Source of the DNA: an uncultured Candidatus Saccharibacteria bacterium
Lineage (GTDB): Bacteria; Patescibacteriota; Saccharimonadia; Saccharimonadales; UBA4665
NCBI GenBank assembly: GCA_903900685.1
Contig: CAIUOC010000072.1
Location: forward strand, 1 to 39,718
Direction of reading: 5' to 3'
Length of the DNA stretch: 39,718 nt
A model generated the notes under the pieces. It made no database searches and had not been told where the DNA came from. It saw only the letters and a program-made list of their open reading frames with translations. Shown piece after piece: positions 14,234-22,994 of the stretch (the first letter of the stretch is position 1; each line of letters opens with the position of its first letter). A program made the translations under genes and the position numbers.

Positions 14234-15613
14234 TTATTTATCATTAAATTTATCTGAAAAATATTCTGTTAAATCCTCTATTTTAACTCTCGACTGGGAA
14301 GTGTCATCTCTATTTCTTACTGTCACAGAACTATCATCAAGTGTATCAAAATCAATTACTACACAGTATGGAGTACCAATTTCATCTTGACGCCTGTATC
14401 TTTTTCCAATATTACCATTATCATCCCACATAACTGCACCGTATTTTTTCTTTAGCACAATATATACTTCCCTAGCTTTATCTAGAAGTTCTGGCTTATT
14501 TTTAAGTAGTGGACTAACGCAAATCTTTACAGGCGCTAAATCTGCGGGTAACTTAAGGAATATTCTTTTTTCACCATTAACTTCATCTTCAGTATAGGCA
14601 TTACTAAGAACTGCCATAACATTACGATCCACACCAAAAGTCGGCTCTATAACGTGCGGAATGAATGGTTCCCCACCATCCTTAGGTCGGTATTCCAAAT
14701 TTTTACCTGAATGCTCTTGATGGCTTTTTAAATCAAAGTCGGTACGATATGCCAGGCCGGATATTTCTTGAAAACCTAAAGAAGGAAAATCATAATAACA
14801 ATCTAGTGTGCGTTCACTATAATGTGCTCGATCTTCAGCCGGAACCTCAACTTCTTTAATCTTAGTCTTGTCTAAACCAATTTTATCGAACCAAGCATGC
14901 ATGTCTGTTCGCCATTTTTCGAAGTTTTCTTCCCATGTTTCAGGCTTAATGAAATACTCGAATTCCATTAATTCTAATTCGCGAAGTCGAAAAATAAAAT
15001 TACCTGGACTAATTTCATTACGGAAGGATTTACCAACCTGAGCAATACCAAATGGTAAGTTAGGATAAAAACTATCCAAAATATTTTTAAAATTAATAAA
15101 CATCCCCTGGGCTGTTTCAGGTCTAAGATATGCAATGGATTCACTATCTTCCAATGGCCCAACTTGGGTTTTGAACATCATATTAAAGTAAGCCGGTGAA
15201 CCAAGCTCGTTGCCATCTGGACTCTTTATATTTTTTTCTTCTATAATTTGTGCCATTTTCTCTAAAGTCATAGTATCAACATTTTCGATTCCATTCTTTT
15301 CTAGTAGGTGGTCCAGTCGATATCTTTTCTTATTCTTGATGTCTTCAATTAATGGATCGTGAAATGTATCAACGTGACCACTGGCCTTCCAAACTTTTGG
15401 ACTTGAAAGTATCGGTGAATCTATAAGATATATATCATCCCAATCATCAACAAAAAATTTAAGCCAAGCATTAGTTATGTTGCGTTTAAGTTGAGCACCT
15501 AAAGGGCCGTAATCAAATGTCCCCGCTAAACCACCGTAAATCTCTGAACCGGGATATATAAATCCTCGTCTTTTACAAAGGCTGACAATATCTTCTAATT
15601 TATTTTTATCCAT
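14234..15613 (-). CDS. glyS: Glycyl-tRNA synthetase (single-chain type)
   Basis: CKRRGFIYPGSEIYGGLAGTFDYGPLGAQLKRN, LRPETAQGMFINFKN, FGIAQVGKSFRNEISPGNFIFRLRELELMEFEYF. Confidence 0.95.
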   Translation of the reverse strand: MDKNKLEDIVSLCKRRGFIYPGSEIYGGLAGTFDYGPLGAQLKRNITNAWLKFFVDDWDDIYLIDSPILSSPKVWKASGHVDTFHDPLIEDIKNKKRYRLDHLLEKNGIENVDTMTLEKMAQIIEEKNIKSPDGNELGSPAYFNMMFKTQVGPLEDSESIAYLRPETAQGMFINFKNILDSFYPNLPFGIAQVGKSFRNEISPGNFIFRLRELELMEFEYFIKPETWEENFEKWRTDMHAWFDKIGLDKTKIKEVEVPAEDRAHYSERTLDCYYDFPSLGFQEISGLAYRTDFDLKSHQEHSGKNLEYRPKDGGEPFIPHVIEPTFGVDRNVMAVLSNAYTEDEVNGEKRIFLKLPADLAPVKICVSPLLKNKPELLDKAREVYIVLKKKYGAVMWDDNGNIGKRYRRQDEIGTPYCVVIDFDTLDDSSVTVRNRDDTSQSRVKIEDLTEYFSDKFNDK

Positions 15614-15656: not shown

Positions 15657-16346
15657 TTATATATCTAGATTTGTTTTAGCAATAGATCTAATGAGTGGAT
15701 ATAGATCATTAGATAATTTTTCACAGTTTTGTATATTGACCATTTTTGTTGGCTGAAACTGATTAGCAAGTTTTAATATTTTTATGTGATTTGCAACATA
15801 TGATCCTTTTTCTTTTGGAGTAAAGGACATTGTTTCTAAATCAAAATCATACTCTTGTTTTTCTTTAAATTCATTGCCGAGACTATCTTTTGATAAATTT
15901 GGAGTATTACCCATTATCATAAAAACTGATAAGTAGAACCATACCCTAACTAGATCTAAATTAATTGAAAAGTCATCTAAAAAACTCATTGAATCTGAAA
16001 GTAGACTAAACCACTCTTCTTCAACTTCATCTTCGGTAATTTTATTTATTATCTTTATAAAATCATAGCCTGAATTAGTTCTGTCTAAATCCTTAACTAT
16101 ATTCGAAAAATGCTTTTTTAATCTTGCAGTTATTAATCTGTCAATACTTCCCCGTCCTAATAGATAAGTAATATCAATAATGCAAAATAATTCAATACTG
16201 CCTGCGAGTTTTGAATTAACTTTCCTTACGCCCTTTACCATCAAGCTTAACTTTCCTTGATTTGGCGTAATAACTTGGATAATTCTATCAGCTTCACCGT
16301 AATTAGTACGCTTTAGTACGATTGCTGATGAGACATGTTGCTTCAT
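15657..16346 (-). CDS. recO: DNA repair protein RecO
   Basis: SSAIVLKRTNYGEADRIIQVITPNQGKLSLMVKGVRKVNSKLAGSIELF. Confidence 0.88.
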   Translation of the reverse strand: MKQHVSSAIVLKRTNYGEADRIIQVITPNQGKLSLMVKGVRKVNSKLAGSIELFCIIDITYLLGRGSIDRLITARLKKHFSNIVKDLDRTNSGYDFIKIINKITEDEVEEEWFSLLSDSMSFLDDFSINLDLVRVWFYLSVFMIMGNTPNLSKDSLGNEFKEKQEYDFDLETMSFTPKEKGSYVANHIKILKLANQFQPTKMVNIQNCEKLSNDLYPLIRSIAKTNLDI

Positions 16347-16729
16347 GTCGTTTTGTTCATCTGAATTTCATTAATCTCATTCAAAAGTGAAGATAATTTT
16401 AATTTAGGTTTATAAATATATTTATAAACGTTCAGTTCATTCCAAAATTTTTTACTATTTGGAAACTCATTGGCTGGAACCATCGAATGAATAACTATTG
16501 GTATACCTAGCCAGTCAGAGTAACTTCTAAATTCATACAAGAAATCTATTCCATTATGTTGTTTTAGTTGTAGTTCAATTATTACTATATCAGGTGTAAT
16601 TTCATCTGCTAATAAAATAGCTTCTTGAGCACTGGACGTAACTCTAACATTAAAGTTTTTAGAGCTAAAGTATCTTAAAAAAATATCTCCTAATATCTTG
16701 TCGGGTTCTATGAATAATAGTTCTGTCAT
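16343..16729 (-). CDS. Degenerate response-regulator receiver (pseudo-receiver)
   Basis: Receiver-like alpha/beta pattern LLFIEPDKILGDIFLRYF...DIVIIELQLKQHNGIDFLYEFR...IPIVIHS...YIYKPKLKLSSLL; Glu where phospho-acceptor Asp is expected; 4-bp overlap with recO. Confidence 0.65.
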   Translation of the reverse strand: MTELLFIEPDKILGDIFLRYFSSKNFNVRVTSSAQEAILLADEITPDIVIIELQLKQHNGIDFLYEFRSYSDWLGIPIVIHSMVPANEFPNSKKFWNELNVYKYIYKPKLKLSSLLNEINEIQMNKTT

Positions 16730-16734
16730 TTTAG

Positions 16735-17448
16735 TTATATAAGTGAAAGTTGTTGACTTAGGGGAAAACCAGCAACTAATCCTTTCCTGCCTTTATACTT
16801 AGAAGGATTTAAAGATAATGACATTGAATCAAGTATCGAAGAAGCAACGAAAAAACCTGATGCATTGATCGACGAAAATTCAGGAATTTTTTGTCTAGTC
16901 TTATAAAAAATTGACATAGACTTCTCCCAGGAAGTTTTATTGATTTGAATATCATTACCGTAAACTCCAGCCATATTTTTTGGACCTCTACCGTATACAG
17001 CAAATATAACTGATTTTCTTTTAGTATTACCTATTGAACTATTCGCCAGAATAATTGAATGTGCGATATTCAAATATGCCATTTTAATAGCTTCATAGTT
17101 ACCCATTATTGGCTTAGATGTTTTAATTAATAGCTCTATATCACAGTTATTTTGATTAGCAATCCTATAAACTTGGTGGGCTACATCATTCATGACTGCA
17201 CCAATCGTAATGGGGCTTAGTTCTATTTCTTTTTGCTTATCTCCTAGTTCAACACCTAAAATATAGCTTTCAAGTAGCTGAAGGGCTAAATCTGCACTAG
17301 ACTCAATCGTCTTCATTTCATCTGATGAGTCCGAATAAGAACTTCTAGACAGCTCAGCAAGTCTAGAAATCTGTACCAGTGGTAATCTCAACTCCTCAGC
17401 GACCGATTTCAATAAAAACTGGTTAGAATTTATCGTAATATCCTTCAA
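16735..17448 (-). CDS. Degenerate histidine-kinase-like protein (HisKA/HATPase-like, no H-box His)
   Basis: LLKSVAEELRLPLVQISRLAELSRSS aligns with the HisKA H-box (SHELRTPL) with Glu in the His position; later GNYEAIKMAYLNIAHSI and ASGFFVASSILDSMSLSL resemble degenerate N- and G-boxes. Confidence 0.6.
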   Translation of the reverse strand: MKDITINSNQFLLKSVAEELRLPLVQISRLAELSRSSYSDSSDEMKTIESSADLALQLLESYILGVELGDKQKEIELSPITIGAVMNDVAHQVYRIANQNNCDIELLIKTSKPIMGNYEAIKMAYLNIAHSIILANSSIGNTKRKSVIFAVYGRGPKNMAGVYGNDIQINKTSWEKSMSIFYKTRQKIPEFSSINASGFFVASSILDSMSLSLNPSKYKGRKGLVAGFPLSQQLSLI

Positions 17449-17526
17449 TTTAATACCCCTTCTATAAATAAAAGTATATCACTAAAAAATTGAGCTATAT
17501 ATTATTTTTAATTATTTGAAAATTCT

Positions 17527-18180
17527 TTATGGTATGAATGAAAAGTTTTTGAGAATTATATTATCAAAGTCTGATTTATAGTTATTACCATATGTTGTAA
17601 TTTCAATAGTATAATTTCTGAGGGGAAGAACCACCTCATATCCAGTTTTTTGATTTCCAATATCGCCCGATACATATACTCCAACAACGCTTGGTAGTTT
17701 TGGCAATGAATATGCGATAGTTTTTTCTTTTTTTGATGATTGAAGGTTTTGAATTACCTGTGAATATGGCTGAGCAATAACTTGAACTTGTAATGAAAAA
17801 ACAGAATTTTGATTATTTAATGGAGGTATATAGACGGGATCAAAATAAGCATTGACTAATGTTCCAGAAAGACCAGTGTCATCAACATAAGCATTCCATG
17901 TATTTGGATATGTAAGGTTAATACTTCCAGCGCCAACGGGACCAATATAATTTTTATATGGATTCTTTAGCTTTTCATTATAATCTGCCAGGTCCTTTGC
18001 TTGTATTGCCTGCTGTGCAACTTTAACTTTTTTATCAACAATAGCTTGTGTATTATTTTTATAGTTTTGTTGACCTGTAAAAGCCCATACTCCAAAAATA
18101 ATTGAACCAACTAGTAATAACAGACATACAGTTAATGCAATTCCTGCTGCCATTCCCCGTTGATTATTCTTTAAATTCAT
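17527..18180 (-). CDS. Membrane-anchored extracytoplasmic protein of unknown function
   Basis: Single N-terminal TM (GIALTVCLLLLVGSIIFGVWAF) and a soluble beta-rich domain. Confidence 0.6.
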   Translation of the reverse strand: MNLKNNQRGMAAGIALTVCLLLLVGSIIFGVWAFTGQQNYKNNTQAIVDKKVKVAQQAIQAKDLADYNEKLKNPYKNYIGPVGAGSINLTYPNTWNAYVDDTGLSGTLVNAYFDPVYIPPLNNQNSVFSLQVQVIAQPYSQVIQNLQSSKKEKTIAYSLPKLPSVVGVYVSGDIGNQKTGYEVVLPLRNYTIEITTYGNNYKSDFDNIILKNFSFIP

Positions 18181-18232: not shown

Positions 18233-18721
18233 TTATTTATATTCATAGAGAAAAATACCATTTTTTTGTTTATTAATTTTTTTACCAGGTATTTTAAAAG
18301 CAAAACTGGCTAACTTAATAGGTCTGTGGTCATATTTATTAAGTCTATTGTCAAGTTTCGTCATTTGTCTTGGTAATAAAAAAGTAAACATACCGTCTGC
18401 TTCTGGCCAATCTATTTGCCAAAAATTATTACAATGAATTTTAACTTTATCTCTGTATTTAAAAGTTCGGATAATAGAAAAGAAATATAGAATTGGATTT
18501 AATTCATAGCCAATTACTTTATATCCTTTTTTGGCTGCATAAATAAGGACTTTTCCATCTCCAGATCCAAGTTCAATAATTGTTTGACCAGGCTTTAAGT
18601 TTAATAGCATAAAAGCAGATTCTATTTGAGGTTTTAGGGTAGGAAGATAAGGAGGTCCAAATATAATGACAAAACCAAAACAAAAAATAAAAATTATAAA
18701 AATAATTAGTAACCATGTCAT
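18233..18721 (-). CDS. SAM-dependent methyltransferase with N-terminal TM helix
   Basis: GQTIIELGSGDGKVLIYAAKKGYKVIGYELNP (motif I), N-terminal hydrophobic helix. Confidence 0.75.
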   Translation of the reverse strand: MTWLLIIFIIFIFCFGFVIIFGPPYLPTLKPQIESAFMLLNLKPGQTIIELGSGDGKVLIYAAKKGYKVIGYELNPILYFFSIIRTFKYRDKVKIHCNNFWQIDWPEADGMFTFLLPRQMTKLDNRLNKYDHRPIKLASFAFKIPGKKINKQKNGIFLYEYK

Positions 18722-22595: not shown

Positions 22596-22994
22596 TTAAA
22601 TTATAGTTTTTATTCTATCTATAACTTCAGTAATCACTATTTGAGATTTCACTAGATAGTCGTCAGCTCCTAGGCTTTTAGCTTTTTCCTTATCAGAGTC
22701 CTGGCCTAAGGCGGTTAGCATTATGACCTTAATTTGTGAGGTTACTGGAGTGTTTTTTAAAATATCTAATACTTCGAATCCGTTAATCTTAGGCATCATC
22801 ACATCTAACATTATTAAATCTGGGTGATATTCCACTGCCGTAGCTAGTGCAGTTTCTCCATTGTCTACTCTTTTAACCTCAAAACCTTCAATCTCTAGGC
22901 GTTTAATATAAACTTCTGCCATAGAATTATCATCCTCTACCATAAGAATTTTTTTAATATTTTGTTCGGTTTTACTATTTAAATATTGATCCAT
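22596..22994 (-). CDS. CheY-like single-domain response regulator
   Basis: ILMVEDDNSMAEVYIKRLEIEGFEV...PDLIMLDVMMPKINGFEVL...VIMLTALG...GADDYLVKS; phospho-acceptor Asp retained; no output domain. Confidence 0.9.
   Translation of the reverse strand: MDQYLNSKTEQNIKKILMVEDDNSMAEVYIKRLEIEGFEVKRVDNGETALATAVEYHPDLIMLDVMMPKINGFEVLDILKNTPVTSQIKVIMLTALGQDSDKEKAKSLGADDYLVKSQIVITEVIDRIKTII

Follow-up and report, generated by a model that had tools for sequence, protein, structure and literature searches.

Does a kinase–receiver gene pair in which both phospho-acceptor residues have been replaced still serve a purpose, and is that purpose tied to recO, the gene to which the pair is joined? The question is raised by a locus in the window, the whole 39,718-nucleotide stretch of DNA analysed here, which belongs to a Candidatus Saccharibacteria genome assembly of 983 kb. 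On the minus strand, the gene order is MT, UP, HK-like, REC-like, recO and glyS.

18233–18721, minus strand: MT, methyltransferase-like protein with an N-terminal hydrophobic segment; syntenic
17527–18180, minus strand: UP, protein with one TM segment and an extracytoplasmic YPxTWxxYV domain; syntenic, upstream
16735–17448, minus strand: HK-like pseudo-histidine kinase, DHp plus degenerate CA; 237 aa, TTG start
17395–17397, minus strand: Glu18 of HK-like, at the phospho-acceptor His position; E in 60 of 81 orthologues, H in 6 of 81
16738–16752, minus strand: QLSLI, the C-terminus of HK-like, a clamp-binding-like tail; Gln233 in 81 of 81
16343–16729, minus strand: REC-like single-domain pseudo-receiver; 128 aa
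16574–16576, minus strand: Glu52 of REC-like, at the phospho-acceptor Asp position; E in 70 of 79, D in 8 of 79
16343–16346, minus strand: ATGA, shared by the REC stop and the recO start; overlap of −4 in most orthologous loci as well
15657–16346, minus strand: recO; RecO_N 2.9e-19 (Pfam)
14234–15613, minus strand: glyS; syntenic, downstream

Both folds are retained and both acceptor residues are replaced

The original prediction described both ORFs as a kinase and a receiver bearing Glu at the His and Asp sites, and this was confirmed in the sequence. The TTG start of HK-like is preceded by AGAAGGGG at 17456–17463. Its H-box reads SVAEELRLPL, in which Glu18 occupies the position where His is expected. 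The ATP-binding motifs, originally described as weak, are indeed degenerate: NIAHSI stands for the N box (NLxxNA) and AGVYGN for the G1 box (DxGxG). HisKA (0.032) was the sole Pfam match of the protein, and no HATPase hit was obtained in the Pfam scan. The AF2 model (pLDDT 89) predicts a DHp-CA fold, and the best Foldseek matches are ZraS, GacS, HK853, CpxA, RetS and the pseudo-kinase DivL (PDB 4q20). In an HHalign comparison of the dead clade with intact orthologues, 230 columns were aligned at 99.8% probability (E 2.3e-28), with Glu18 opposite His.

The acceptor strand of REC-like is PDIVIIELQL, in which Glu52 stands where Asp is expected. The protein matches Pfam Response_reg (1e-8; 35.7 bits against a cut-off of 30.2), and its closest named homologue, 76% identical, comes from Candidatus Saccharibacteria MAGs. 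The acidic pair is altered to E-P-D instead of E/D-D; the conserved Thr/Ser and Lys-Pro are retained (S82, K107 and P108). The AF2 model (pLDDT 94) has a receiver fold, with Foldseek matches to VicR, KdpE and DivK, so that structure prediction, which had been proposed as a check, gives the expected fold for both proteins. REC-like is an aspartate-less receiver, that is, a receiver fold without the acceptor Asp. No TM segment was found in either HK-like or REC-like. The two substitutions and the degenerate ATP site together support the phosphorylation independence originally proposed. A second stand-alone receiver in the window (22596–22994, minus strand), which adjoins pyrG, is canonical and has its acceptor Asp.

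The pair descends from an intact two-component system at the same locus

HK matches were observed in 133 of 149 order relatives, mostly one per genome. The UP-HK-REC-recO order is nearly constant in 80 loci, and the REC/recO overlap, confirmed as 4 bp in the window, is usually exactly 4 bp. The longer order, MT-UP-HK-REC-recO-glyS, is maintained class-wide, and HK-REC-recO recurs in other Patescibacteria classes (L243, L244, L246–L248). Synteny in the order, the class and other classes rules out chance adjacency to recO.

The two acceptor sites were compared in 81 orthologous loci. The HK/REC pairs are E/E in 58, H/D in 6, and D/E, Q/E and Y/E in 3 each; the rest are D/D in 2 (family f37) and N/E, K/E and D/S in 1 each. 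His never occurs without Asp among these loci, and Asp occurs without His in the two D/D loci only. In the six H/D pairs, HK has a recognisable N-box and GLGL/GIGL and REC has an acidic pocket, features that the non-His forms lack. Families f3, f15, f23, f25, f26, f35 and f36, as well as outgroup orders, have intact H/D pairs at this locus. A profile built from the intact kinases identified canonical kinases at this locus in f35, f26, f25 and f39, the last from another order. All 18 genera sampled in f35, which may be the family that includes the cultured oral strains, have the intact version. In further orders of the class, an HK of 650–1133 aa is followed by REC and recO, and those long HKs that were scanned carry GAF and PAS sensors.

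The intact orthologues at the same locus indicate that a two-component system ancestral to the pair lost its catalytic function. Judged by sequence comparison, HK-like is catalytically dead, REC-like is dead as well, and both derive from an intact system at the locus HK-REC-recO-glyS. Most simply, the ancestral locus would have encoded a canonical sensor kinase and a single-domain receiver next to recO; the sensor was probably lost first and catalysis later. An alignment of orthologues had been proposed to show whether Glu is fixed at both sites. It is near-fixed in a large clade, and other families have intact His and Asp; these intact forms show the origin of the pair and do not overturn its reading as a pseudo-pair. 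One contig titled as a Chlamydiae bacterium (L185, CAJCIR010000011.1) bears the Saccharibacteria locus and is probably a mislabelled MAG.

His and Asp were lost repeatedly, and the dead pair is maintained

A tree of RecO, MT and UP recovers families well. It replaced a tree that included glyS, which gave conflicting and misleading placements. Once glyS is added, the rows of L083, L113, L134, L138 and L142 change their placement between families and between orders, a sign that glyS may have been exchanged horizontally next to a recO inherited vertically.

The RecO+MT+UP tree contains one clade of 56 rows (SH-aLRT 99), all with non-His kinases and including the window. His and Asp were lost separately from this clade in f13, f27 and f34. 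In total, about four His losses and four Asp losses occurred in Saccharimonadales, in the same lineages and every time with replacement of Asp by Glu; for a formal paired test of co-loss, these independent events are too few to reach significance. The substitutes for His are diverse (E, D, Q, Y, N, K, S and T). Those for Asp are almost exclusively E, with S once and N in f20, and Glu at the receiver Asp site is the usual phosphomimic (PMC12548384). Asp is retained beside a dead kinase in f37 and, in other orders, beside the kinase-dead HK-like proteins of f38, f40 and f48. The HK-like proteins at L148, L151–L153 and L154 (f38 and f40) are still more degenerate and their receivers keep Asp; f38 has a C-terminal Q-[LMI] remnant.

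Comparison with the nearest species gave pN/pS values of 0.091/0.757 = 0.12 for HK and 0.153/0.802 = 0.19 for REC, rough ratios because synonymous sites are saturated. HK is more conserved between these species than RecO (86% versus 73% identity). By these measures, the dead pair is under purifying selection.

Gene decay, in which the pair is on its way to being lost, would fit the absence of REC in G107 and of HK in G137. The G137 locus (L136:2163-3963) no longer contains HK but retains UP, the Glu-bearing receiver and recO in order, which shows that HK and REC are not always needed together. Against decay, the ORFs are intact in approximately 30 families, pN/pS is low and conservation extends to the level of motifs. 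Decay is accordingly very improbable and was rejected on the grounds of purifying selection and wide retention.

The kinase ends in a putative clamp-binding tail

Gln233 is the sole invariant column in an alignment of 37 HK sequences. It opens a C-terminal tail that reads QLSLI in the window, QLQLV typically in the dead clade, QLSLL or QMSLL in f35, QLSLF in f39 and QLPLL in the sensor-bearing forms. The motif bound by the beta sliding clamp is Q-aliphatic-x-[LM][FL], with the highest affinity for QLxLF and tolerance of Ile at position 5 (PMC11139829), and it is often C-terminal (PMC4549789). A relaxed tail pattern was matched by 104 of 113 locus HKs versus 0 of 31 other HKs, the latter drawn from six genomes and taken from the searched loci. 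A 32nd kinase of this control sample, L254, has the tail, and it proved to be the kinase linked to recO in G155. The neighbouring proteins lack the pattern, with matches in 0 of 118 REC, 1 of 119 RecO, 0 of 112 UP, 0 of 93 MT and 0 of 96 GlyS sequences. In the recO-linked HKs of f88, outside the class, the tail was not found.

The strict clamp motif is present in 21 of 29 intact kinases versus 4 of 78 non-His kinases. Position 5 of the non-His forms is mostly Val or Ile, and 73 of the 78 fit once these residues are allowed; the window has Ile. For Val at position 5, no documented clamp binder was found in the literature consulted. DinB of the window's genome carries QISLL, and DinB of related lineages keeps Leu or Phe at this position. 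Because position 5 has drifted to Val or Ile in the non-His forms, clamp binding can be regarded as likely in the intact forms; in the window HK it is plausible, though it may be weaker.

The tail could instead be part of the CA fold or an interface with the receiver, unrelated to the clamp, within a pair that is still a phosphate-free scaffold. The AF2 tail block, which has a pLDDT of about 80 and a short helix, and the drift of position 5 in the dead clade are consistent with such a role. However, the tail lies beyond the last strand, is absent from the 31 other HKs of these lineages and persists in the very degenerate f38 and f20 forms. We regard a purely structural tail as doubtful, if worth keeping in view. 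A clamp-binding tail remains our preferred reading.

RecO is not an obligatory partner, and the upstream membrane protein is an improbable one

The original prediction also proposed that the pair acts with RecO. As a dedicated accessory complex, the dead pair would bind RecO and control gap repair. The operon agrees with this proposal: HK-REC is translationally coupled to recO in most of approximately 120 loci, the gene order extends to other classes, and the HK tail suggests DNA metabolism. However, MT, UP and glyS are equally syntenic, and members of the pair persist in f20 genomes from which recO is gone. In G133, recO and UP are missing and the HK-like and REC-like genes lie directly before glyS. 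In G107, recO, recF and REC are missing and an HK relative remains before glyS. Absence from these two MAGs (92–93% complete) was scored by profile searches, though the deletion itself is directly visible in the intact surroundings of glyS. The dead kinases of the recO-less loci (L241:4764-5806 and L242:3156-3833) retain the tail as QMALV and QMTLV. Since f20 keeps a kinase relative without recO, RecO is not an obligatory partner. A dedicated RecO partnership is weakly supported, and we consider such a complex unlikely.

A role of the pair as a clamp-linked replacement for an absent RecF was ruled out, as RecF scores above the cut-off in 54 of 60 relatives. Joint loss of recO and the pair was unusable as functional proof; the whole block is missing in several genomes, probably owing to assembly gaps. 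Two-component genes are not mentioned in the main text of a Saccharibacteria Tn-seq study (PMC10633639).

A partnership with the upstream membrane protein had also been suggested, and synteny is its sole basis. In a membrane scaffold of this kind, HK, which has no sensor of its own, would receive a signal from UP without phosphate. UP lies upstream of HK in 75 of 80 loci and in outgroups, and combines a TM segment with a domain outside the cell. The UP family has no Pfam family above the cut-off, and its YPxTWS-YV motif is conserved, with synteny across the class. Several observations oppose this explanation: UP is already present where HK has its own GAF/PAS sensors, HK and REC have no TM segment, and an HK relative stays in f20 without UP. 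A scaffold at the membrane is thus improbable.

A proposed fixed adaptor at the sliding clamp

The explanation that we favour, with somewhat better than even confidence, is that the pair is a phosphate-free scaffold in which the kinase docks a Glu-locked receiver and the tail anchors the complex to the beta clamp. The dimeric DHp-CA body would still dock the receiver, and Glu in place of phospho-Asp would hold the receiver in one state. The kinase tail, QLxL[LFIV], would tether the whole assembly to the beta sliding clamp. In this way the pair may form a fixed adaptor where DNA is replicated or repaired, and its ancestor may have been a signalling kinase tethered to the clamp. RecO, which is translated from the same mRNA, is a possible but non-obligatory client. 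To a wider history we give slightly less than even weight: a two-component system as old as the phylum, borne on the clamp by docking to DnaN and encoded with recO, would repeatedly have become an adaptor through joint loss of His and Asp, with Asp replaced by a Glu lock.

If the tail binds the clamp, two-component signalling would be tied directly to the replication fork. The setting is Patescibacteria, whose genome maintenance has hardly been studied. With intact orthologues at this locus as built-in controls, the pair offers a natural experiment on how a phosphorelay turns into a scaffold. The pair is real and strongly conserved, with a surprising, putative link to the replication clamp.

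Comparison with known systems

We know of no sensor-kinase family described as riding the replication clamp; if the proposed link is true, this HK family would be the first. In the literature consulted, no histidine kinase was found among described clamp binders, nor any account of a histidine kinase with a clamp-binding motif or of an HK-REC-recO locus. Clamp binders with C-terminal motifs include Pol II, Pol IV and transposases (PMC11139829, PMC4549789). HK-like shares the C-terminal Q-L-x-L-[FLI] tail with them, but most tails of the dead clade end in Val or Ile.

The chloroplast sensor kinase CSK has undergone the same His replacements: higher plants have Glu at this site and green algae Tyr or Gln, and ATP binding is kept (PMC5054060). 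Its ATP binding is one difference from HK-like, whose ATP site is degenerate; no dead cognate receiver beside CSK and no clamp-like tail are reported. DivL of Caulobacter is a pseudo-kinase that regulates another kinase and works with an intact receiver, DivK (PMC9430884). Like DivL, HK-like has a kinase fold without the acceptor His and would act through protein contacts; the partner receiver of DivL is intact, whereas the cognate receiver here is dead. HP1043 and CmrT are examples of receivers that work without phosphorylation or carry Glu (PMC8345958, PMC12548384). CmrT and AtvR share the Asp-to-Glu replacement with REC-like and are inferred to be constitutively active, and the DD motif of CmrT is also altered (PMC12548384). 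CmrT is an OmpR-family regulator, whereas REC-like is a stand-alone receiver that lost its Asp along with the His of its kinase. None of CSK, DivL, HP1043 and CmrT represents a kinase and its own receiver inactivated together. Dead kinases and dead receivers have each been described singly; at this locus, a cognate pair became dead jointly, several times.
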